Assembly (NCBI GenBank): GCA_015057715.1
Contig: SVDS01000041.1
Span: forward strand, 1 to 35,293
Direction: 5' to 3'
DNA: 35,293 nt
Source of the DNA: Paenibacillaceae bacterium
Lineage (GTDB): Bacteria; Bacillota; Clostridia; Lachnospirales; Lachnospiraceae
Part shown: piece by piece, positions 5,599 to 35,049 of the stretch
Layout: each line of letters begins with the position of its first letter
How positions within the stretch are numbered: the stretch's first letter is position 1
Translations under genes and position numbers: made by a program
The notes under the pieces: generated by a model
Told to the model about the DNA's origin: nothing
Databases searched by the model: none
What the model saw: the letters and a program-made list of their open reading frames with translations, nothing else

Positions 5599-6618
5599 TT
5601 AAATATTGTATTTTGTTTTAATAATAATATCCGTGTAAAAAAATTCCTGCTCTTTTCTGCTCCCAGACTGCATGATATCCGTAAGGATGAACAGGGCGCG
5701 GTACCCTTGTGTATAGCCATTCTGGTCAATGAGAAAATCCGCAATTCCTTCTTCCAGAGCTTTGATATTTCCCGTGGTTAAATCATAGATAATAATATGG
5801 GGCTTTTTTTCCGGCTTTAGCTCTTCAAACGCCTTTTTTACGCCCCCCTGGCCACCTGAGAATATGACTGCACCCTGGAGATCCGGATAAGCAGTGAGGG
5901 TGTTGACAAGGATCTTTTCCACCTCTTCCTTTTCATCAAAGCTGCTTTGTACTCCTACAAGCTCGAGCCCCGGAAATGTCCTCTTTATCTCATCCACAAA
6001 CCCATCCACACGCATACTGTTAACACTATTCCCAAAATATCCTGTAATAGCGAGAATCTTTCCCTGTCCGCCGGTTAGCATTCCCATAAGCCCAGCCGCC
6101 GTGCGTCCGCTCCGTTTGTTGTCCTGACCTACGAAACAGCTTCGTTTTGTCCCTACAATATCCGTATTAAACGTTACGACTGAGATCCCCTGTTCAATCA
6201 GGGAATTGATTTTATCCCTTATTTTATCGCACTCCACAGGCATGATTGCAATGCCTGACACCTTATTTTTTTCCAGCCTTTCAATGGCTGCAAGCTGCTC
6301 TTCCTCGCTTACAGTGACACACTCTTCCATTACAAAGACAATTCCTCTTTTTTTCAATTCTTTTTGCGCATCTTCTAACCCTTTTCTGATGGGAATCATA
6401 AATGACGATTTAGCCAGCTGGGTTACAATGCCGATTTTAACCGATTCCTTTTTTACTGCCGTTTTTTCTTTTTTCGGCACATAACCGATTTCATCTGCAA
6501 TCTGAAAGATCCGCTCTTCCACTTCCTTGTCAATCCGCCCCCGTTTATTTAACGCGCGGTCAACAGTACCTCTGGACACACCTGCCCGCTCTGCTATTTC
6601 CCGAATCGTTCCCGCCAT
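5599..6618 (-). CDS. LacI-family transcriptional regulator
   Basis: The 339-residue protein has an N-terminal LacI helix-turn-helix (TIREIAERAGVSRGTVDRAL, residues 4-23) and a periplasmic-binding-like sensor domain (from about residue 60, VKIGIVTQLAKSSFMIPIRKG) of the ribose-binding type. It most likely senses an inositol or an inositol pathway intermediate and represses iolC and itself; that target assignment is inference from the shared inverted repeats and position. Note that a second regulator, DeoR/IolR-like, lies at 9346-10125, so the locus has two candidate controllers. The ATG follows AAAGGAGAG. Confidence 0.88.
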   Translation of the reverse strand: MAGTIREIAERAGVSRGTVDRALNKRGRIDKEVEERIFQIADEIGYVPKKEKTAVKKESVKIGIVTQLAKSSFMIPIRKGLEDAQKELKKRGIVFVMEECVTVSEEEQLAAIERLEKNKVSGIAIMPVECDKIRDKINSLIEQGISVVTFNTDIVGTKRSCFVGQDNKRSGRTAAGLMGMLTGGQGKILAITGYFGNSVNSMRVDGFVDEIKRTFPGLELVGVQSSFDEKEEVEKILVNTLTAYPDLQGAVIFSGGQGGVKKAFEELKPEKKPHIIIYDLTTGNIKALEEGIADFLIDQNGYTQGYRALFILTDIMQSGSRKEQEFFYTDIIIKTKYNI

Positions 6619-6650
6619 CTGTTCTCTCCTTTAAGCAATTCACTTTAACC

Positions 6651-6679
6651 ATCATATCACACATAAAAATAGCACGCAA
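6651..6679 (-). promoter_or_regulatory. Promoter of the LacI-type regulator gene
   Basis: TTGCGT (6679-6674) and TATGAT (6656-6651) on the minus strand are separated by 17 bp. The -35 hexamer lies in one arm and the loop edge of the GCACGCA/TGCGTGC inverted repeat at 6672-6691, so autoregulation is likely. Confidence 0.6.
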
Positions 6680-6698
6680 GTGTATGCGTGCTATTTTT
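6665..6698 (-). terminator. iolA terminator that doubles as an operator-like inverted repeat
   Basis: Arms of 14 bp (6665-6678 and 6685-6698) are perfectly complementary around a 6-nt loop, with A/T-rich flanks that give U-runs on both strands. It starts 17 bp beyond the iolA stop, so it fits an iolA terminator. Its core GCACGCA-N6-TGCGTGC matches the half-sites in the iolC promoter and overlaps the -35 of the LacI-type gene. Confidence 0.75.
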
Positions 6699-6714
6699 TC
6701 AATAAAAACAACTT

Positions 6715-8226
6715 TTAGATTGTTCCATCCCAGGTATTAACAGCTGTGGATTCTCCGGTTTCTTCGTCGAACCATCTGGTGGTAACAACTTTATTTTCTG
6801 TATAGAATCTGAAACCATCTTTTCCTAAGCAGTGAAGATCTCCAATAAATGACAGCTTATTGCCGTTGAATGGGAACATACCAACCGGAACCGGAATTCC
6901 TACGTTGATACCGATCATACCGCCGTCTGTATGTCTTGCAAACTCTCTTGCATAACGTCCGTTCTGTGTAAAGATAACAGAACCGTTGGCAAATGGATTG
7001 GCGTTCATAACTGCAAGTCCTTCTTCAAAGTTCTTAACTCTCTTTATGCACAGTACCGGTCCAAAGATTTCTCTTTCACCTACGCTCATTTCAGGAGTAA
7101 CATGATCAAGAATTGTTGGCCCTAAGTAGAATCCTTTTTCAAAGCCTTCTACTACCACATCACGGCCGTCCAGTACCACTTTGGCACCTTCTGCGATTCC
7201 AGTCTCGATCCATTTTACGACTGAATCTTTATGTGCCTGATTAATAACCGGTCCAAGATTTGTGGTCTTGTCATAAGCGGGTCCTACTTTTAATTTTTTA
7301 GCCTGAGCTACGATTTCTGCTACAAGTGCATCGGCGATTTCTTCCTGAACAACCACTACTGGAAGAGCCATACATCTTTCACCAGCACAGCCAAAGGTGG
7401 AGTTGATAATACCTGCTGCCACACGTTTAACAGGAGCATCTTTTAATACAAGAGCGTGGTTCTTGGCTTCACAAAGAGCCTGAACTCTCTTTCCTGTTGC
7501 TGCAGCTGTGGAATAAATATGCTTTCCAACAGATGTGGAACCTACAAAGGTAATTCCCTTAACATCGTCGTGTGTAAGAAGTATCTCTGCTTCGTTTCTG
7601 GTGCAGGTAACGATATTAATTACGCCGTCTGGTAGTCCTGCTTCTTTGTACAGCTCAGCGATGCGCATGCTGGACTGAGGAGTAAAGGAAGCTGCTTTTA
7701 ATACGATGGTATTACCGCATGCGATACACATGGGAGTCATCCAGCCCATTGGAATCATAGCCGGGAAGTTAAATGGCACAATGCCTGCAAATACGCCCAG
7801 AGGCATACGATATAATACTGTGTCAAATCCGGTGGAAGCGTCCATTAAACTTTCTCCCATCATCAGTGACGGAGCGCTGATGGCCTGCTCGGTTCCTTCT
7901 TTTGCTTTGAGCACATCACCCTGAGCTTCTTCCCAGTTTTTACCGTTTTCTTTTGCTACCAGCATGGTCAGTTCATCCATATGCTCGATCAGTAAATCTC
8001 TCAGCTTATAAAGAATCTGAACTCTTTTAATAACCGGAGTTGCTGACCAGGAAGGAAATGCTGCTTTCGCTGCTGCTACAGCCTCTTCCACTTCATCCGG
8101 AGTACAGCATGGTACTTTTGCAATCACTTCACCAGTGCTTGGGTCAAAGGCATCTGTATACTTCGTTGTTTTAGATTCCTTCCACTGACCGTTTACAAAA
8201 TACTTTAATGTTTTTACTTCTCCCAT
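6715..8226 (-). CDS. iolA: Methylmalonate-semialdehyde / malonate-semialdehyde dehydrogenase (CoA-acylating)
   Basis: IolA (MmsA) converts malonic semialdehyde, released by IolJ, to acetyl-CoA with NAD+ and CoA, the last inositol step. The protein is an aldehyde dehydrogenase superfamily member of about 503 residues. PFNFPAMIPMGW (about 151-162), the NAD-fold segment FVGSTSVGKHI (about 227) and the catalytic cysteine in CAGERCMAL (Cys285) are visible. The frame extends to an ATG at 8238, but there the AAAGGA ribosome site touches the start codon; the ATG at 8226 has a better distance and gives the usual N-terminus (MGEVKTLKYFVNGQW). It follows iolJ by 49 bp, without a clear terminator between them. 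Confidence 0.93.
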   Translation of the reverse strand: MGEVKTLKYFVNGQWKESKTTKYTDAFDPSTGEVIAKVPCCTPDEVEEAVAAAKAAFPSWSATPVIKRVQILYKLRDLLIEHMDELTMLVAKENGKNWEEAQGDVLKAKEGTEQAISAPSLMMGESLMDASTGFDTVLYRMPLGVFAGIVPFNFPAMIPMGWMTPMCIACGNTIVLKAASFTPQSSMRIAELYKEAGLPDGVINIVTCTRNEAEILLTHDDVKGITFVGSTSVGKHIYSTAAATGKRVQALCEAKNHALVLKDAPVKRVAAGIINSTFGCAGERCMALPVVVVQEEIADALVAEIVAQAKKLKVGPAYDKTTNLGPVINQAHKDSVVKWIETGIAEGAKVVLDGRDVVVEGFEKGFYLGPTILDHVTPEMSVGEREIFGPVLCIKRVKNFEEGLAVMNANPFANGSVIFTQNGRYAREFARHTDGGMIGINVGIPVPVGMFPFNGNKLSFIGDLHCLGKDGFRFYTENKVVTTRWFDEETGESTAVNTWDGTI

Positions 8227-25550: not shown

Positions 25551-26825
25551 TTATAATTCATTTGGATTAATGCCAAAATGATCAAAAAGAATCTTTTCCG
25601 CCTCCCGATTCCATAATCCCTTATGGGCATTGCAGGATTCACTGAGCTTTTTAAAAAGCGGATCAGTTTTTCCCAGTTCTTCGAAATCGTCAATGGCTGT
25701 TAAAGGCAGATCAAATTGGGTATAGGTGAGTTTTTTCCCTCCGGGAATGGAAGGCAGATTCTTTGTCGCCTCTGCAATGCTGTCGATTCCTCCCACATGG
25801 GTTACCATAACAGCAGCTTCAATGGCTCCATCGGCTGACAGCTGATTGGCCTCTACCAGATCATCTGTATTACCGCCAGTCGTTCCCATAATGTGTGTAC
25901 TTGTATAATGGCAGTTGTAAAGATTGATTTCCGCCTTAAACTGGCTGTCAGAGGGTCCGGCAAAAAAATTCATGCAGCCGTCAAATGCCAGGAGTTTATC
26001 CCCCATCTGTGCTACCTCTTTCACAGGTACATACACAAATACATCATCATAACCATGTCCCTCTGTAAAGTCCATAAGTTCCGAAACGGGATCAGCCATG
26101 ACAGCTGTATTCACATAGTGAAGCTCAATTCCTCTCTCCAAAGCAGACTCTTCTGAAATAACTTCCTTTGCCCGGGCAATCCGCTCATCGCTGATATCCG
26201 TTACCACAATTTTCTTTGGCTTATTTTCAAACTGCAGACCATAGCTAACTGCTCCCAGTCCCATGGGGCCGCAGCCTCCCATAATCAGAATATTACCATC
26301 TGCTTTGGTTCCCATTGCATGATCGTAATTCCTTTTATTGGTATGATAATTGGCATGAAATCCACCAATGATACAGCTCATTGGCTCTCCCAGTGATGCT
26401 TCAAAAAAGCTCTCTCCAGTATAATCAAGAAGACATCCCAGCTCCATAACCTCGTTAGGCATAATACAGTAAGTACAGGCCCCTCCGCAGAATTCATAGG
26501 AATATCCCGGTGAATCCAGCTTTCCCTTGTAATTTAACGCTGGCTGCAGAGAAAACTTCTGTCCCGGCCGAAACTGGTCCTTCCACTTGTTCCCGACTTC
26601 CACAATCAGCCCCGCACACTCATGACCCACAATGACTGGATTGGTATCCATGTTCTGAGGTGCTCTTTTATGCTTTTTCCCCTGCTTTACCAGCTTGTAG
26701 GTGGACATGCAAATGCTGTCGCTTACGATTTTTACAAGAATCTCATCTTCCTTAATGGGAGGAAGTTCAAACTCCTCCAGTCTTAAGTCATCTGCACCGT
26801 ACATTCTTACCGCTTTTGTTTTCAT
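25551..26825 (-). CDS. Zinc-dependent alcohol dehydrogenase, L-sorbose-1-phosphate reductase (SorE)-like
   Basis: The 424-residue MDR-family protein opens MKTKAVRMYGADDLRLEEFE, with catalytic zinc ligand candidates Cys39 and His68-Glu69 (VGHEC), and a Rossmann motif LIMGGCGPMGLGAV. Segments such as NYHTNKRNYDHAMG, FVYVPV and NFFAGPSDSQF recall SorE, which interconverts L-sorbose 1-phosphate and D-glucitol 6-phosphate. The ATG at 26825 follows GGAGG by 8 bp; the frame extends back to 26849. It is the last gene of the EIIA-kinase-dehydrogenase operon. In this locus it stands where mtlD would be in a mannitol operon, so a hexitol or ketose phosphate is its likely substrate. Confidence 0.8.
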   Translation of the reverse strand: MKTKAVRMYGADDLRLEEFELPPIKEDEILVKIVSDSICMSTYKLVKQGKKHKRAPQNMDTNPVIVGHECAGLIVEVGNKWKDQFRPGQKFSLQPALNYKGKLDSPGYSYEFCGGACTYCIMPNEVMELGCLLDYTGESFFEASLGEPMSCIIGGFHANYHTNKRNYDHAMGTKADGNILIMGGCGPMGLGAVSYGLQFENKPKKIVVTDISDERIARAKEVISEESALERGIELHYVNTAVMADPVSELMDFTEGHGYDDVFVYVPVKEVAQMGDKLLAFDGCMNFFAGPSDSQFKAEINLYNCHYTSTHIMGTTGGNTDDLVEANQLSADGAIEAAVMVTHVGGIDSIAEATKNLPSIPGGKKLTYTQFDLPLTAIDDFEELGKTDPLFKKLSESCNAHKGLWNREAEKILFDHFGINPNEL

Positions 26826-26860
26826 ATTTCCAGCCTCCAGCCTATTCATAAATTTTACTA

Positions 26861-27790
26861 TTAAATCTCCAACAGCTCTACCCGCTCCACCAGTTCATCC
26901 ACCAGGCTGCGTTTAGGCGGTTTGGTTCCTATGCTGGTAACCGCTCCTGCTGAAGCCCCCATACATAAACGGATACAGGTTTCAAGGGGAAGCTTTTGAT
27001 CCCAGCTGTGTGCCATGGCTGCAACCAGTGCATCTCCGGCGCCTACCGTGGAATGGGCTTTTACCCGAAGCCCGGGACAACGGTACCGTTTTCCCTTTGT
27101 TAAGAAAATGGCTCCCATTTGCCCAAGAGAGATTGCTGCCATGGAAACTCCCTGCTCAAGAAGCTTTTCTCCCATGGAGACCAGTTCCTGTTCGGAAGCC
27201 CTGTAATCCATCTGATAATACCGTTCCAGTTCTGAGCGGTTGGGCTTTAACATATCCGGTTTTCCTTTTAAGGATTCGGAAAACAGCACACCGTCTGCAT
27301 CCAGCAAAACCTTTGCACCTTTTTGGTGAACCTGTTCCGTAATTTTTCTGTATATATCCGTTGGTATCCCCGCCGGTATGCTTCCTGCCAATACAAACAG
27401 GGTATCCGGATTTGCATAACCTTCCAGCCTGTTAAGAAGATCGTTAAGCTGATCCTTTGATACTTCCGGTCCAGGCTCATTTAACTCTGTCACCTCACCG
27501 GTTTCCTCCACCACCTTTAAGTTCGTTCTCGTCTCCCCTTTTACTTCCACGAAATCGGTTCTGAGTCCCAGGTCAGTCAGAACCTGTTTGATGATGGTGC
27601 CGCTGGTTCCTCCCACAAAACCTGTGGCAATACTTTCCCCTCCTAATTCTCTGATTGTTTTGGAAACGTTAATGCCTTTTCCTCCGGCATCAATTTCCAC
27701 CCGCTTTATTCTGTTTAAATCTCCCCGTTCAAATTTTCCAATATCCACTGTTTTATCAATGGCTGGATTCATTGTTACTGTAACGATCAT
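26861..27790 (-). CDS. 1-phosphofructokinase family hexose-phosphate kinase (PfkB)
   Basis: The 309-residue protein opens with the 1-phosphofructokinase/LacC signature MIVTVTMNPAIDKTV and has the glycine motif DAGGKGINVSKTI and the catalytic GAGDALVAAM (Asp253). It phosphorylates a ketose monophosphate to the bisphosphate: fructose 1-phosphate (FruK) or tagatose 6-phosphate (LacC) in the family. The ATG directly follows the EIIA stop (TAAATG), so translation is coupled. Here it probably activates the product of the neighbouring dehydrogenase or PTS for aldolase cleavage. The substrate is not resolved from sequence. Confidence 0.87.
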   Translation of the reverse strand: MIVTVTMNPAIDKTVDIGKFERGDLNRIKRVEIDAGGKGINVSKTIRELGGESIATGFVGGTSGTIIKQVLTDLGLRTDFVEVKGETRTNLKVVEETGEVTELNEPGPEVSKDQLNDLLNRLEGYANPDTLFVLAGSIPAGIPTDIYRKITEQVHQKGAKVLLDADGVLFSESLKGKPDMLKPNRSELERYYQMDYRASEQELVSMGEKLLEQGVSMAAISLGQMGAIFLTKGKRYRCPGLRVKAHSTVGAGDALVAAMAHSWDQKLPLETCIRLCMGASAGAVTSIGTKPPKRSLVDELVERVELLEI

Positions 27791-28258
27791 TTAAGAACAC
27801 CCCTTTCCGGTAAACATGGTATAGATCTCCTTGGCGCTGCATCTGGTGATCCGTTCCACATCGTCCGGATCAGCAAGACACTGTGCAATGACAGAAAGTA
27901 TTTCCAAATGCTCCTCTCCTGCTCCAGCAATCCCTATAACCAGTTTTACCGTCTCTCCTCCCCAGTCTGTTCCATCAGGAAATACCATGACTGCAATACC
28001 GGAACGTCTGATGTTTTTTTTGGCTTCCTCCACACCGTGAGGAAGTGCAATTCCATTGCCGATATTCGTAGGAAAGGTCAGTTCCCGCCGAAGCATTGCC
28101 TCTATATAGGATTCATCCACGCAGCCACTTTCGCAAAGCATTCTCCCCACTTCCCTTATGACTGTATCTTTTTCTCCAGATCTGCAATTCAGGCGGATAT
28201 TACCAAGTTCCAAAAGTTCTGTATTCTTTTCTTCATTTTTTTTCCCGTATCCAAACAC
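27791..28258 (-). CDS. PTS EIIA component, mannitol/fructose type
   Basis: The 155-residue soluble protein has the phospho-acceptor His74 in GIALPHGVEE, the EIIA-Mtl/Fru active site. It accepts phosphate from HPr and passes it to the EIIB cysteines of the two EIICB proteins encoded upstream. The start codon is GTG at 28258, after AAGGAGGGG. It is the only EIIA in the locus, so one EIIA probably serves two EIICB proteins. It heads the second transcription unit, with a promoter matching that of the first. Confidence 0.88.
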   Translation of the reverse strand: MFGYGKKNEEKNTELLELGNIRLNCRSGEKDTVIREVGRMLCESGCVDESYIEAMLRRELTFPTNIGNGIALPHGVEEAKKNIRRSGIAVMVFPDGTDWGGETVKLVIGIAGAGEEHLEILSVIAQCLADPDDVERITRCSAKEIYTMFTGKGCS

Positions 28259-28290: not shown

Positions 28291-28361
28291 ATTATAGGGT
28301 TTCTATCTTATGTTTTTCAACGAAAACAAAATGGCATTTGGCGTCATCAGATAATGCCAAA
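28291..28361 (-). promoter_or_regulatory. EIIA operon promoter with TTTGGC/GCCAAA operator
   Basis: On the minus strand TTGAAA (28320-28315) and TATAAT (28296-28291) are 18 bp apart. The inverted repeat TTTGGC-N13-GCCAAA (28337-28361) lies 16 bp upstream of the -35. The mtlA-like gene's promoter has the same -35, -10, spacer and operator distance. Activation by the MtlR-like protein is inferred. Confidence 0.8.
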
Positions 28362-28373
28362 ATTAAAAAGCAC

Positions 28374-28405
28374 AAAAAAACCAGGTCCTTTACGGACCCG
28401 GTTTT
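28374..28405 (-). terminator. Terminator of the mtlR-like gene
   Basis: CCAGGTCC (28381-28388) pairs with GGACCCGG (28394-28401), extended by AAAA/TTTT, and is followed on the minus strand by seven T residues. It lies 15 bp after the stop of the activator gene, so the EIIA unit needs its own promoter. Confidence 0.85.
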
Positions 28406-28419
28406 CCTGTTTTTAATCC

Positions 28420-30525
28420 TCAGATTTTATCCAGATAATGTCTGAAATATTGATTTAAATACTGGGAAACAAATGCTCTTATTTCCTCTTTTCCTCCATG
28501 TCTCACAGCTTCTAAGAACTCCTCTTCCTCAATCAGCCGCTCGCTTAAGACCCCCAGGATTTCACTGTTTTCTGCTGTGTGGTCATCCTTTGGAACCAGC
28601 ATGACCAGCACGACACAGACTCCTTTAAAATATGGATCAGAAAATGGTGTTCCGTCTTTTGTCTGGCAGACTGAAAATACCGGCTTACCTACCCCTTCCG
28701 TCCTGGCATGAAGCAGGGCGAAGTTTAAATCAGGGAATATCTGGCTGCAAAGCCGTTCTCTCCTCATTAAATCCTCCTGTATCATGATCTGACGTTCCGG
28801 ATAGGAAGCCAGCTTTTCACTGACAGCGATTAAAAGCTCATCAAAGTTGATTCCATTGTCTACCCGCTGATACTCCATGAGCCTGATCACATTTTTGATC
28901 TGGACCGCCATAAAATTCACCTGGTCCAGCTGTATGGTAAACTCCTTATTGTCCTGCTTTTTGGGCATATATTCGCATTGGCGCACCTTCCCCGCAATCC
29001 GTTCCATTTCTTCCACGGAAAGCAGAGGGCTCACAAACAGAATGTCTGCCTCTTCTTTTAGGGGAACCGTAGATACAAAGAAATCTGTCTTGTTTAACAC
29101 ATAGGGCGACAAGTCCGTCATACCATAAACAGACAGCTCCACCCTGTCCGAAAAATCTCTGGCAATTCTGGAAGACATAAGCCGGGAAATCCCGATTCCG
29201 CTGGCGCAGACGATCCCTATATTCACCTTCCTCCGGCTTTCCTTTCTGCTTTCCATACGGACTTCAGCCGCGCCAAAGTGTACGGCAAGAAACCCGATCT
29301 CCGGCTCCGGCACTTCATATCCGTATCGGTCTTCAATTACCCTGGCAACGGTTCTGCAGCGATCAAATATGGCCGGATAATCCCGTTTTATCTGCTCCAG
29401 CAATGGATTCTGAATCTTCATACCATTGGCAAGGCGAACCAGAGTGGGTTTTAAATGGGCAATCAGTCCCTGGATTACAAATTCTTCATCCTGTTTCAGC
29501 AAATATGCCATACCATCGTTATAGCAGTCAATCATTTCATTGACCACCTCCCACAGCTCCCTGGATTCCTCTATTTCACTTTTTGACTTCTCATCAATAT
29601 TCAGCTGCTGAATCTTAGAGCCTTTGATGTGCAGGCAAATATAGGCACACTCAATCTCCGGAATCTGAATCCGGAATTCTTCTTCCAGGGATTTGGTTAT
29701 GGTCCTGGCAAGATCATAGTCCTGGTCTTTCTGTAAAAAATCTGCCATTATGGGATTCTCTTCAATGATCTCCTGGCGGCGGATCCGGTTTACAGCAATT
29801 GCCACATGAATCACCAGACCAAGATAGGAATCCTGGGTCAGATTCAGGATTCGCTTATCTCTTATTCTTAAAATACAGGCGGTCACCCGCTTTACAATAT
29901 CATCATCCAGGATTCTGTAAATGTTTCTCTCACTCTTATTCTGAATTACATTTAACACGGTCTGGTTCCTGTCTTCATACATCCCCTGTATCATCTCAGT
30001 ATGAATGTTTTCATCGATAAAAACCCGGAGAGCTCTGCGAAAATCCCGTTCACTGCCCTCAATAAACACACCGTATCCCGGTTTTCTCTTAATCTCCAGA
30101 TGGTATCTGTGAAACCACTCTTTCACCGCTTCTAAATCCGAGCTGACGGTAGCCTCACTTACCCCAAAAATATCACTGTAATAATATAGTTTTTTTAACG
30201 TCTTATCCTTAAGAATTTCAAGGATCAGGCGCTTCTGGCGTTCAATCCGATCCGAAACATCAAGGGCATCATCCGCTTCAAGTTCGTCCTTTAAAGCTTC
30301 AATCTGAGCCCTGTCACCCTCCAGCCAGATACCAGTCCCGGTTTTGGAGCAAAAAGTCAGCCCGTATTTCTTCAGCGCTCTGGGAATGTACTCCAGCTCC
30401 CTTTGCACCGTTCTTTTGCTGATACGGATCTGGTCTGCAAGCTGCTTTACAGGAACAGGCCCCTGCTCTTTAATCAAAGCCAGAACGATTTGCTGCATTC
30501 TGGGCGTAAAATCACTGCCTCCCAT
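28420..30525 (-). CDS. PRD-containing transcriptional activator, MtlR/BglG type
   Basis: The 701-residue protein has an N-terminal HTH (about 1-60; VPVKQLADQIRISKRTVQREL), a Mga-like second HTH, two PTS regulation domains (about 190-415; conserved His in VIHVAIAV, CLHIKG, FLAVHFGA), an EIIB-like domain with the Cys in IGIVCASGIGISRL, and a C-terminal EIIA-like domain with His in ALLHARTEG. In MtlR, phosphorylation by the PTS at these sites controls DNA binding. It probably drives both operons through the TTTGGC/GCCAAA palindromes. The ATG at 30525 follows GGGAGG inside the previous gene; a GTG at 30534 is less well placed. Confidence 0.92.
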   Translation of the reverse strand: MGGSDFTPRMQQIVLALIKEQGPVPVKQLADQIRISKRTVQRELEYIPRALKKYGLTFCSKTGTGIWLEGDRAQIEALKDELEADDALDVSDRIERQKRLILEILKDKTLKKLYYYSDIFGVSEATVSSDLEAVKEWFHRYHLEIKRKPGYGVFIEGSERDFRRALRVFIDENIHTEMIQGMYEDRNQTVLNVIQNKSERNIYRILDDDIVKRVTACILRIRDKRILNLTQDSYLGLVIHVAIAVNRIRRQEIIEENPIMADFLQKDQDYDLARTITKSLEEEFRIQIPEIECAYICLHIKGSKIQQLNIDEKSKSEIEESRELWEVVNEMIDCYNDGMAYLLKQDEEFVIQGLIAHLKPTLVRLANGMKIQNPLLEQIKRDYPAIFDRCRTVARVIEDRYGYEVPEPEIGFLAVHFGAAEVRMESRKESRRKVNIGIVCASGIGISRLMSSRIARDFSDRVELSVYGMTDLSPYVLNKTDFFVSTVPLKEEADILFVSPLLSVEEMERIAGKVRQCEYMPKKQDNKEFTIQLDQVNFMAVQIKNVIRLMEYQRVDNGINFDELLIAVSEKLASYPERQIMIQEDLMRRERLCSQIFPDLNFALLHARTEGVGKPVFSVCQTKDGTPFSDPYFKGVCVVLVMLVPKDDHTAENSEILGVLSERLIEEEEFLEAVRHGGKEEIRAFVSQYLNQYFRHYLDKI

Positions 30526-30526
30526 C

Positions 30527-31855
30527 TCATCCACCTCCCATTAACCAGTCCAGGAGTTCCTTATAACCAGACATATCTGTTAAATTGTCCACCGTAAAGC
30601 ACGGAATATGAATTTGTGACAAAGTACGGGCAAAATCCTTCTGGCAGACAACCGCATCTGCATCTGCAGGAATCCGGTCAGCGGACACATGAAATACCTC
30701 AATCCCCGCTAGGCCTTCCAGTCTCAGTCTCTTCTTAAAAAGTGCACTGGCCATGGCACTGGATCCCATTCCTACATCACAGACAAAATATATTTTTGCA
30801 TGTTCCATTCTCATTGGCATCACTTCATCCTTTTGTTCCTTTTGTATATCAGCAGATGATTCACCCCTGTTTCTTAGCAGAATCAGGCAGGATACAAGGC
30901 AGGTCACAGCTGCGGATATAAAGATTCCCATAACAATCCCCAGCCAATGCTTTTTATCCGCCATAATCAGTATGGTAATAATGCTTCCAGGGGAAGCCGG
31001 TCCCAGAAGTCCGCTGTCTGTCATCATGAAACAGTAATTTCCCGCAATACTTCCGACTATGGCGCCCGCCAATAACCGGATATCTGAAAGAATATAGGGG
31101 AAATAAACCTCATGAATACCTCCCAGGGATTGTATAATAAGGCTGGAAACCATTGTTTTTCTCATATTGGGGTGAACCAGGGCGTAAGCAAGAAGAATAC
31201 CGAATCCCGGTCCGGGATTGGTCTCCAAAAGAAACAATATGGAACTCTCCTGGGTTTTTAACTGTTCCAACCCCAACGGCAAAAAAAAGCCGTGATTAAT
31301 CCAGTTATTAAAGAAAACAATTTTTAACGGCTCTACCATAAAGCTGATAAAAGGGATGATTCCCCTGTCTATCATAAACGATAAACCATTTCCCAAAAAT
31401 CCCAACAGCCATTCTGCCTCCGGTATTATAAAAAGATAGGCAGCGCCTCCGGCAAGCAGCCCCAAAGATGCTAAATATAAGTTGCCAAAGAGCATCTCAA
31501 AGCCGGAAGGAATCCAGTTTTTGATCCGGTCTAACCCTTTCCTGCATAGAACCCCGGCCATACTGCCTACCATTACAGACAGAATCATGGAAGAGGCAGG
31601 CTCTGCCATAACAACAACAGAAGCGGCAAGGGTGCCGGCTAACCCGCCGACCTCCCCGCCGCACACAGTGCCTGCTTTATATCCCATAAACACCGGAATC
31701 ACCAGAGAAGATAAAATTTTGGACATTTCATACAGGTGCTCATTCTGGAATATGCCTGCCGAAAAGGCTGACAGCAGTCCTGCTGTCACAAAAAGAGGTA
31801 TGCATTCAGCAATCACCCTGCTGTAATACTTCAGTACTTTCCCCGCTAATTTCAT
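30527..31855 (-). CDS. Second PTS EIICB, mannitol-type (divergent MtlA paralogue)
   Basis: The 442-residue membrane protein is a divergent relative of the EIICB encoded just upstream. Transport motifs shared with it are NNWINHG, ETNPGPGFGILLAY and GGIHEVYFPYIL. The C-terminal EIIB has the phosphocysteine Cys359 in FVCDVGMGSSAM. The active residues are intact, so it should be functional. It overlaps, on the 3' side, the leader of the MtlR-type gene (stop TGA one base before that start). The substrate may differ from that of the first EIICB, or the two may form a pair. Confidence 0.86.
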   Translation of the reverse strand: MKLAGKVLKYYSRVIAECIPLFVTAGLLSAFSAGIFQNEHLYEMSKILSSLVIPVFMGYKAGTVCGGEVGGLAGTLAASVVVMAEPASSMILSVMVGSMAGVLCRKGLDRIKNWIPSGFEMLFGNLYLASLGLLAGGAAYLFIIPEAEWLLGFLGNGLSFMIDRGIIPFISFMVEPLKIVFFNNWINHGFFLPLGLEQLKTQESSILFLLETNPGPGFGILLAYALVHPNMRKTMVSSLIIQSLGGIHEVYFPYILSDIRLLAGAIVGSIAGNYCFMMTDSGLLGPASPGSIITILIMADKKHWLGIVMGIFISAAVTCLVSCLILLRNRGESSADIQKEQKDEVMPMRMEHAKIYFVCDVGMGSSAMASALFKKRLRLEGLAGIEVFHVSADRIPADADAVVCQKDFARTLSQIHIPCFTVDNLTDMSGYKELLDWLMGGG

Positions 31856-31937
31856 CTGTGAAATTCCCCTTTTAAACCCATTATATGTTTTTGTTAGTAT
31901 TATAACATGGTTTACAAGCAGATGAAAGGCAGTAGTT

Positions 31938-33335
31938 TCACAATGAATTAATCTGGTTTTCTTTTAATGATTCCACCAGCTGGTCATATTCCGGAGCTGC
32001 CATAAAATTTGTAATCAGAACCAGCTGTGCATCCGGATTGCTGTGAGCCGCACGTTCCTTTAATTCCTTATGAGTTACTACGATCTGGGCATCCTGAGGA
32101 ATGGAGGATACGGGTGAATGGGCCACTGTAATATCTCCAAATCCGGCTGCTGCCAGCTTTTTTTTCAGAACAGTAGCTCCCATTGCGCTGGAACCCATAC
32201 CTGCATCACAGGCAAATACAATTTTTTTAACACTGCTGCTAAATGATGGATTCATTTCTACCGTCTGATTTCCTTTGGACTCCTGTTTCATCTTGTTAAC
32301 TTTATCCTTCGATTCTTCTAAATCCCCGCCTTTGCCTGTAAACCGAAGCAGAGGAAGAGCCACAAGGAAGGAAACTGCGGCAGCTACTGTAACACCTGCC
32401 AGAGTACCAAGGTATCCACCTCTTGGAGTCATTGCCAGAACAGCCAGAATGCTTCCGGGAGATGCAGGTGAGGTTAATCCCACACCAAGGAGCTGAAACA
32501 CAAAGATTCCGCTGGCTCCGCCTGAAATAACCGCCAGAAGTAACAGAGGATTCATCAGGATGTAAGGGAAATAAATCTCATGGATTCCTCCTAAAAAGTG
32601 GATGATAATTGCGCCAGGTGCTGAACTCTTGGCAGATCCCTTTCCAGCAATACAATAAGCCAGTAATATGCCAAGTCCCGGTCCCGGGTTTGCTTCAAGA
32701 AGAAAGAAAATAGATTTTCCAACTTCTTCTACCTGCTGAATTCCCATAGGAGAAAGAATTCCATGGTTAACAGCATTGTTTAAGAACAGAACCTTAGCAG
32801 GTTCAATAAAAACACTTGCCAGAGGCAGCAGTTTATGATCAACAAAGAAACCGACTCCGGATTCCATCACCCGGTTCATAACCTCTACAAAAGGAGCAAC
32901 TCCCTTTAATGCAATGACTGTTAAGATAGCACCGATGATACCCAGTGAAAAGTTGTTAACCAGCATTTCAAAACCAGCAGGGATCTTTCCCTCTATTTTA
33001 CGGTCGAACTTCTTAATCACCCAGGCACTGACAGGACCTACGATCATGGCTCCCATAAACATGGGAACACTGGAACCGACGATTACGCCCATGGCTGTAA
33101 TTGCACCAATCACGCCGCCCCGCTGACCATAAACAGCCGTACCGCCTGTATACGCGATCAAAAGAGGCAGAAGCATACTGGCCATTGGAGAAACCAGTGC
33201 TCCGATGGCTTCATTGGGATACCAGCCCGTTGGGATAAACAATGCCGTAATCAGTCCCCATGCAATAAATGCACCGATGTTAGGCATTACCATACCGCTT
33301 AAAAAGCGGCCAAATACTTGTACCTTCTCTTTCAT
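31938..33335 (-). CDS. mtlA: PTS mannitol-type EIICB (MtlA-like)
   Basis: The 465-residue membrane protein has about eight hydrophobic segments, the EIIC motifs NNAVNHG, EANPGPGLGILLAY and GGIHEIYFPYIL, and the C-terminal EIIB with phosphocysteine Cys376 in FACDAGMGSSAM. It imports and phosphorylates a hexitol, classically mannitol to mannitol 1-phosphate. There is no fused EIIA; the separate EIIA is at 27791-28258. The ATG at 33335 has GAGGG 8 bp upstream; the GTG at 33350 is less likely. It is the first gene of the PTS locus. The specificity is uncertain because no mtlD is present and the partner enzymes are SorE-like and FruK-like. Confidence 0.85.
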   Translation of the reverse strand: MKEKVQVFGRFLSGMVMPNIGAFIAWGLITALFIPTGWYPNEAIGALVSPMASMLLPLLIAYTGGTAVYGQRGGVIGAITAMGVIVGSSVPMFMGAMIVGPVSAWVIKKFDRKIEGKIPAGFEMLVNNFSLGIIGAILTVIALKGVAPFVEVMNRVMESGVGFFVDHKLLPLASVFIEPAKVLFLNNAVNHGILSPMGIQQVEEVGKSIFFLLEANPGPGLGILLAYCIAGKGSAKSSAPGAIIIHFLGGIHEIYFPYILMNPLLLLAVISGGASGIFVFQLLGVGLTSPASPGSILAVLAMTPRGGYLGTLAGVTVAAAVSFLVALPLLRFTGKGGDLEESKDKVNKMKQESKGNQTVEMNPSFSSSVKKIVFACDAGMGSSAMGATVLKKKLAAAGFGDITVAHSPVSSIPQDAQIVVTHKELKERAAHSNPDAQLVLITNFMAAPEYDQLVESLKENQINSL

Positions 33336-33389
33336 TTTACATACCCTCACTTTATGATATAGTATTTACTGTGTGACCCGTGGAAGGTA

Positions 33390-33403
33390 TGATTGGCCAA
33401 TCA
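33390..33403. repeat. Perfect 14-bp palindrome in the mtlA-like leader
   Basis: TGATTGGCCAATCA is perfectly self-complementary. It lies shortly after the predicted transcription start of the mtlA-like gene, where a repressor site could sit. There is no counterpart at the EIIA promoter. Confidence 0.5.
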
Positions 33404-33421
33404 ATTCCTTTTCATAGACCT

Positions 33422-33491
33422 ATTATAATCAATGTGAGGTTTAAATTTCAACACGAAGTAACTGGGATTTGGCGCTAGTTTTAGCGCCAAA
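33422..33491 (-). promoter_or_regulatory. mtlA-like promoter with TTTGGC/GCCAAA operator
   Basis: On the minus strand TTGAAA (33451-33446) and TATAAT (33427-33422) are 18 bp apart. A nearly perfect palindrome, TTTGGCGCTA-N4-TAGCGCCAAA (33468-33491), lies 16 bp upstream of the -35. It resembles the TTG...CAA MtlR sites described in bacilli. The EIIA promoter has the same architecture. Confidence 0.82.
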
Positions 33492-34865: not shown

Positions 34866-34991
34866 CTCTTATTGCTCGATTTCTCGCTCAGGTTGGCACC
34901 TTCCGGACGTTTTTTATGGTTAAAAACCACAAAACCGACTGGGGTTGCCGTGACTTCACAGATCCTTTGTATCTCCATCACTCTGAATAAG
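34866..34991 (-). promoter_or_regulatory. SAM-I (S-box) riboswitch aptamer
   Basis: On the minus strand the aptamer begins CTTATTCAGAG and ends CAATAAGAG, which pair as P1. Conserved S-box elements lie between: GATGGAGATACAAAGGATC, TGAAGTCACGGCAACC and GGAAGGTGCCAACCTGAGCG. Together with the terminator at 34821-34843 this is a complete SAM-sensing transcriptional OFF switch for metK. Confidence 0.96.
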
Positions 34992-35049
34992 GGATATTAC
35001 GACTTTTCATTTGTTATTCAATTTTAGCAGTAACAATATCTGCTTTTTC

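Follow-up and report, generated by a model that had tools for sequence, protein, structure and literature searches.

The window examined here, a 35,293-nucleotide stretch from a Paenibacillaceae bacterium placed by GTDB in the Lachnospiraceae (GCA_015057715.1, contig SVDS01000041.1), carries on its minus strand a hexitol-type phosphotransferase system (PTS) locus in which two promoters, one upstream of an mtlA-like gene and one upstream of an EIIA gene, are the predicted targets of an MtlR-type activator encoded between them. Read along that strand, the locus comprises an mtlA-like PTS EIICB of 465 amino acids counted from its ATG (31938–33335), scoring 521.4 bits against TIGR00851 (cut-off 468.4) and 683.4 bits against NF011663 (cut-off 589); a diverged second EIICB-like paralogue of 442 amino acids (30527–31855), which falls under both mannitol cut-offs and matches Pfam PTS_IIB; the 704-amino-acid MtlR-type regulator (28420–30534), with a helix-turn-helix (HTH), two PTS regulation domains (PRDs), an EIIB-like region, and an EIIA-like region; an MtlF-like EIIA (27791–28258; Pfam PTS_EIIA_2), the first gene of the second unit; a pfkB of the 1-phosphofructokinase type (26861–27790; TIGR03828, 321.5 bits, cut-off 292); and a zinc dehydrogenase related by sequence to Escherichia coli YggP and to SorE (25551–26849). 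Similar gene sets occur in other genomes of the family, some of them lacking pieces such as the second EIICB or the kinase, and mtlR precedes mtlA in loci L040 and L042. The genome is Lacrimispora-like, as nine loci carry the regulator at 92–99% identity (six Lacrimispora records, one Hungatella, and two metagenome-assembled genomes named Paenibacillaceae).

Both promoters read TTTGGC-N12/13-GCCAAA, 16 bp, TTGAAA, 18 bp, TATAAT. At mtlA, the 24-bp dyad TTTGGCGCTAAAACTAGCGCCAAA (33468–33491) is followed by a 16-bp spacer (33452–33467), the −35 box TTGAAA (33446–33451), and, 18 bp after it, the −10 box TATAAT (33422–33427). At the EIIA gene, the 25-bp operator TTTGGCATTATCTGATGACGCCAAA (28337–28361), the 16-bp spacer (28321–28336), the −35 box TTGAAA (28315–28320), and the −10 box TATAAT (28291–28296), again 18 bp on, follow the same plan, and the claim of an earlier note on this DNA that the two promoters share one architecture was borne out to the base by direct reading. 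The N12–13 operator pattern matches the window twice and was found in none of 100 dinucleotide shuffles. Relaxed to N11–14, it has three sites on the two strands of the whole 5.40-Mb genome, namely the window pair and C67:6853 (N11), and the last was set aside as a chance match, neither strand having a TTG at the 16-bp distance; the pattern written backwards, as a control, matched once forward and once in reverse.

That the genome holds only two N12–13 sites might suggest that their likeness is a product of recent duplication or of coincidence, which we regard as extremely improbable. Chance is excluded by the 100 shuffles together with the genus counts given below, and the window spacers of the two promoters differ. 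Across genera, the EIIA operators keep a center of their own, near ATCNGAT (mean 1.33 bits over seven columns in 16 sequences, versus 0.71 at mtlA in 21 sequences), and the EIIA promoters likewise have their own spacer consensus, so that recent duplication is unlikely and the two promoter classes are old.

The regulator has the domain plan of the MtlR family (HTH, PRD1, PRD2, EIIA-like), with Pfam matches to HTH_11, to PRD twice, and to PTS_EIIA_2. No Pfam EIIB match was obtained for the EIIB-like region, yet C443 lies within IVCASGIG in all 28 MtlR proteins compared; H243 (PRD1), H360 and H419 (PRD2), and H609 (EIIA-like) are likewise present in 28 of 28, and H302 (PRD1) in 27. The PRD and EIIA histidines of the family are thus in place, the gene stands beside those for a mannitol EIICB and an EIIA, and a TTGNCA...TGNCAA dyad lies close 5′ of a sigma-A type promoter. 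The NCBIfam matches in the locus include no MtlR model, and a search of solved structures with MtlR returned only PRD antiterminators, EIIA proteins, and chance matches. In the excerpted text of the Bacillus subtilis study, H342, C419, and H599 of MtlR are named (PMC3217849), and the conserved phosphosites seen here would fit control by phosphorylation of the same kind.

We read both sites as predicted operators of this PRD activator, which would switch both units, and we put the probability of this reading at about 0.85. All nine near relatives (L004–L012) retain both operators with TTG at 16 bp. The earlier note had proposed a scan of this genome and of related Lachnospiraceae for the motif at its fixed distance, and in that scan the operator with TTG at 16 bp was present as a pair in 17 of the 25 genomes of the genus (34 sites), with one further, chance-like site in one of these 17 and a single backwards control match in all 25. 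Exactly the same 17 genomes encode MtlR at 88–100% identity, and seven genomes, one of them only 67% complete, have neither MtlR nor the operator pair. G730, also of the genus, combines an MtlR of 48% identity with an altered operator, TGTGTC-N13-GACAAA, 16 bp from TTGTAT. Sites before mtlA or EIIA were also found in other genera. MtlR was detected at E values up to 1e-80 in 16 of 299 family genomes, and a pattern scan of 397 genomes, the 299 included, yielded 12 sites in nine genomes, all 12 upstream of mtlA or EIIA; only sites with at most one mismatch over operator, TTG, and TATAAT were counted, which leaves the 24-bp mtlA site of the window itself outside. Among the family genomes, such sites occurred in 6 of 16 with MtlR versus 0 of 283 without it. 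In G138, about 20 kb of a single contig separates mtlA from mtlR, and the mtlA operator is still kept at 16/18, a site that would be served in trans. A second such case, G246, in which mtlA was placed on a different contig, was discarded because of a contig break, the end of mtlA reading at the very start of the mtlR contig.

The geometry of the operator class was measured in 48 regions upstream of mtlA or EIIA (7 of the 48 rows from this genus), with the distance from operator to −35 box left free between 11 and 21 bp and no value preferred. This spacer was 16 bp in 43 of 46 credible regions, 17 bp in two, and was called as 13 bp in one (L042), for which an alternative reading places a −35 box TGGATT at 16 bp and TATAAT 18 bp further on. 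Operators were 25 bp long in 38 regions and 24 bp in 8, with 2 spurious calls; all of the 24-bp operators are mtlA sites, three from this genus and five from diverged loci. Ten mtlA promoters gathered later gave the same result, nine being parsed by script as 16/18 and the tenth (L159), misread by the script, being 16/18 by eye. The two promoters of L130, a locus from a different family of the order, are likewise spaced 16/18. The EIIA genes of L031, L039–L043, L131–L133, and L138 were left unscored, as EIIA there closely follows mtlR or mtlA and no such promoter was seen by eye; in L032 and L037 the contig ends before EIIA, and the gene behind the second operator is assumed. In the consensus, from which L134 was omitted as a near copy of the window, the proximal half G.CAAA is intact in 44 of 45 operators and the distal half TTTG.C in 24 of 45. 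The sister mtl locus L040 (G168), from the same family, encodes a fused IICBA, an MtlD, and an MtlR about 38% identical to that of the window; the YggP-like dehydrogenase and pfkB of the window were not found in the L040 stretch. Its operator takes the form TTTGTC...GACAAA and stands 16 bp from TTGATT, the same distance as in the window, which ties the operator class to true mannitol operons. Collectively, the co-occurrence with MtlR, the geometry kept across genera, the trans site in G138, and the conserved phosphosites support the proposal, also made in the earlier note, that one activator acts on both units and that the MtlR-type gene is the candidate.

Several observations weigh against this assignment. 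No credible operator precedes the EIIA genes of L077 and L078, and the other 10 of the 16 MtlR-positive family genomes show altered operators and no site at one mismatch or fewer. Allowing up to three mismatches across the promoter proved too loose, with 64 of 397 genomes matching and the backwards control also scattered over many. In G346 (L080), one of six genomes chosen by pattern alone (G302, G306, G346, G353, G366, and G379), operator and promoter are present, and the stretch yielded no gene of the locus. Most loci were fetched through MtlR, which makes its presence there circular, and linkage by itself does not tell MtlR apart from some other factor encoded in the locus; the clear trans cases come to one, G138. 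No recognition-helix residue was seen to track the choice of G or T in the operator core. Lastly, PRD domains are matched 24 times in the genome, only twice within MtlR, so other PRD regulators exist.

The last of these points bears directly on the possibility that the dyads belong to a different regulator, be it a further PRD protein, some repressor, or the two-component system encoded downstream, and that MtlR is a mere neighbor. Binding of MtlR to the dyads is itself a prediction from sequence, and a gene for a sensor kinase is located downstream both in the window and in L135 and L136 of the genus. This kinase has only weak relatives in 15 family loci, however (23% in L035, 26% in L042), and mtlR adjoins the pattern in five of the six genomes picked by operator pattern alone. 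A site 16 bp upstream of the −35 box is also more in keeping with activation than with repression, and it agrees with the arrangement for B. subtilis MtlR. We consider ownership by another regulator unlikely. As an observation on L080 itself, the mtlA operator, promoter, and leader hairpin remain from about 14598 downwards on the minus strand, and by eye only an internal scrap of mtlA is left, an apparent deletion.

An MtlR that acts on both units would bind the 24/25-bp dyad, probably in dimeric or higher-order form. Given a transcription start some 7 nt past the −10 box, the dyad center would lie near −64, and MtlR held at the fixed 16-bp distance would aid RNA polymerase with the housekeeping sigma factor at the TTGAAA-18-TATAAT promoter. 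B. subtilis MtlR is argued to be a likely class II activator whose site extends toward the −35 box (PMC3217849, in the passages available); a site reaching toward −35 would fit the T-rich spacers of the promoters described here, and a dyad center near −64 would, taken alone, also allow a class I contact. By analogy, MtlR would be active with PRD2 phosphorylated by HPr and with the EIIB- and EIIA-like domains unphosphorylated, a state that would arise as the cognate hexitol draws phosphate away from EIIA and the EIICB transporter. The transporter of the mtlA unit and the EIIA and catabolic enzymes of the second unit would then rise together. We infer binding, activation, mannitol as the signal, and the phosphorylation logic.

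The bacillar MtlR consensus is TTGNCA...TGNCAA. The GGC core had been taken in the earlier note as a departure from it, but this did not hold up, as the base concerned is the free N: the distal core base at orthologous mtlA operators is G in 14, T in 12, and A in 3 (n = 29), the proximal one is C in 15, A in 12, and T in 2, and the proximal half of B. subtilis PmtlA is itself GCCAAA. The operators described here do differ from the bacillar ones in dyad length (24–25 bp versus about 21 bp) and in their inner bases. As far as the consulted excerpt of PMC3217849 goes, the PmtlA primers read TTGTCACAGTCATGTGCCAAA, 17 nt, TTGTAT, a layout like that of the window promoters, and the B. subtilis system at PmtlA and PmtlR shares with the window a PRD activator whose phosphosites fall in equivalent domains, a pair of promoters for one activator, the proximal half GCCAAA, and a T-rich spacer. 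It differs in the 17 nt to the −35 box (16 bp in the window), in its dyad of about 21 bp with inner CACA/TGTG (24–25 bp in the window), and in the controlled pair, which is mtlA and mtlR in Bacillus and mtlA and the EIIA unit here (PMC3217849). The Bacillus licheniformis box is likewise a pseudo-palindrome, TTGTCA...TGCCAA, but it is shorter and has one GTC and one GCC half; in the part of that report consulted, MtlR boxes with altered inner spacing were still bound in gel shifts (PMC10992428). In Bacillus methanolicus, as described in the portion of PMC5031790 at hand, the transporter, regulator, and EIIA genes (mtlA, mtlR, and mtlF-mtlD) are also spread over several transcription units, though unlike the window the species has mtlD; that portion describes no operator. 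Control of the locus is well supported as a mostly ordinary variant of the known MtlR system. The operator code of MtlR would extend from bacilli to Lachnospiraceae with an exact 16/18-bp geometry, which supplies a pattern with which hexitol regulons can be sought in gut-type bacteria; the core base is shown to be free. Our searches of the open-access literature returned neither a Lachnospiraceae MtlR operator nor an mtlA leader RNA.

It could also be supposed that the dyads serve mainly as intrinsic terminators of the upstream genes and resemble one another as a by-product. The dyad extends outward by at least 4 bp in 8 of the 27 mtlA operators scored first and in 6 of 9 added later (1.7% with shuffled flanks), and the extensions span 4–10 bp, with a T-rich spacer following the dyad; this count omits L134 and L135 as near copies of the window and L156 as a copy of L155, and seven of the nine later operators come from one genus and are not independent. 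The window dyads, on the other hand, extend by only 1 and 0 bp, metK has by eye a hairpin and T-run of its own, and an exact extension of at least 4 bp is found in 0 of 15 EIIA operators (2 of 15 with one mismatch). As a terminator, moreover, requires neither TTTGNC/GNCAAA nor a fixed 16 bp to the −35 box, we consider termination as the main role very improbable. The mtlA operator is best seen as having the added role, predicted from its extended dyads, of ending the upstream transcript in some genera, with the MtlR assignment kept. Terminator-like mtlA operators are present in L032, L040, L042, L075, L076, L078, L081, L082, L149, L150, L153–L155, and L158.

Downstream of its promoter, the mtlA unit may carry a second layer of control. 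A conserved hairpin with a GGCC loop (33384–33410, minus strand; state A) lies just after the presumed start of the mtlA mRNA, and pairing analysis identified CAUACCUUC (33383–33391, minus strand) as the 5′ partner in a possible alternative state B, complementary to GAGGGUAUG in the mtlA ribosome-binding site region (33340–33348, minus strand). Leaders with the hairpin, its loop mostly GGCC, were seen in L029, L031–L036, L075–L077, L079–L082, L129, L138, L149–L156, L158, and L159. In the inner stem of 16 leaders, 92.5% of cells are paired and 4 cells are changed on both sides, values reached by 4 and 9 of 500 shuffles, respectively, with kinship included. The Fisher p values that follow ignore kinship. 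The flanking outer helix gave 1.6e-8 at its true position in 17 leaders, where 13 shifted anchors gave at least 0.03, and 9e-5 on ten held-out leaders (of which L155 and L156 are alike and L159 was misparsed). Pairing of the hairpin 3′ strand with the ribosome-binding site, CAUACCUUC/GAGGGUAUG in the window and UCAUACCUC/GAGGUGUGA in other leaders, gave 1.3e-9 in 16 leaders and 5e-8 in the ten held out. Changes also travel together: in L154 a G-C pair of the hairpin becomes A-U and the ribosome-binding partner shifts from G to A along with it, and in L129 three strands (GACU, AGUC, and a second AGUC close to the start codon) change jointly. A further pairing in state B, between the 5′ strand AUUGAUU and the start-codon region AAUCAAUG, is confined to a subset of leaders (held-out p 0.014).

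Counting against the leader switch, the second pairing lies above p 0.05 in 8 of 16 leaders (L029, L031, L033–L036, L082, and L138) and in 5 of 10 held-out ones (L149–L151, L158, and the misparsed L159), and hairpin energy compared with flank shuffles was weak in 17 leaders (mean z −0.49, Stouffer −2.0). The free leader fold keeps the hairpin in the window and in L033 and covers the ribosome-binding site in L032, L075, L076, L079, and L129. The leader of L130 lacks the GGCC motif, and an Rfam search of the window stretch gave no match for the leader. An RNA model (R1) run over 250 genomes had 23 matches, of which 10 are mtlA leaders, all from the genomes used to build it; four of the other 13, viewed by eye (G132, G093, G076, and G192), are not mtlA leaders, and relatives of G138 added only one new genome, which had no match. 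We hold it possible, at somewhat less than even odds, that the mtlA unit combines MtlR at the shared operator with a two-state leader RNA that has no Rfam match. State A would be the 5′ hairpin with the GGCC loop; in state B, the hairpin 3′ strand UCAUACCUC would pair with GAGGUGUGA at the ribosome-binding site, and in certain species the 5′ strand would pair with AAUCAAUG. As the two states are mutually exclusive, transporter translation would be governed by a factor or by the order in which the RNA folds, and the leader, if real, would be a translational switch added to a PTS transporter gene.

Among the enzymes, the mtlD of the classical mtl operon is missing from the open reading frames of the locus; two PF08125 proteins are encoded elsewhere in the genome, in open frames of 509 and 541 amino acids. 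The zinc dehydrogenase shares about 51% identity with E. coli proteins, among them one annotated yggP, and 43–46% with SorE. Most of the loci have a dehydrogenase of this YggP/SorE-like kind; none was found in the L040 stretch, where a true MtlD stands (6477–7616), so one may replace the other. As a guess, a SorE-like reaction would turn mannitol 1-phosphate into fructose 1-phosphate for the kinase; a solved-structure search with the dehydrogenase gave no match, and literature searches on the locus enzymes gave nothing decisive. The second EIICB paralogue (30527–31855), present in only some of the orthologous loci, is perhaps a second transporter or a phosphorylation sensor.

Some loci hold additional copies. 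Inside the first locus of G353, a second hexitol-type set (L081, 7112–12991, minus strand) encodes an mtlA product, a dehydrogenase, and an MtlR at 51%, 48%, and 30% identity, and in G730 (L138, 2099–5807) there are second copies of the dehydrogenase gene and of a partly matched kinase gene. Matches to mtlA at G026:C65:23034–24395 and G794:C160:59730–61127 contain one in-frame stop each (TAG and TAA, respectively). Within the window, metK is preceded at its 5′ side by an ordinary S-adenosylmethionine (SAM) riboswitch (34866–34993, minus strand; Rfam RF00162, 59.1 bits).

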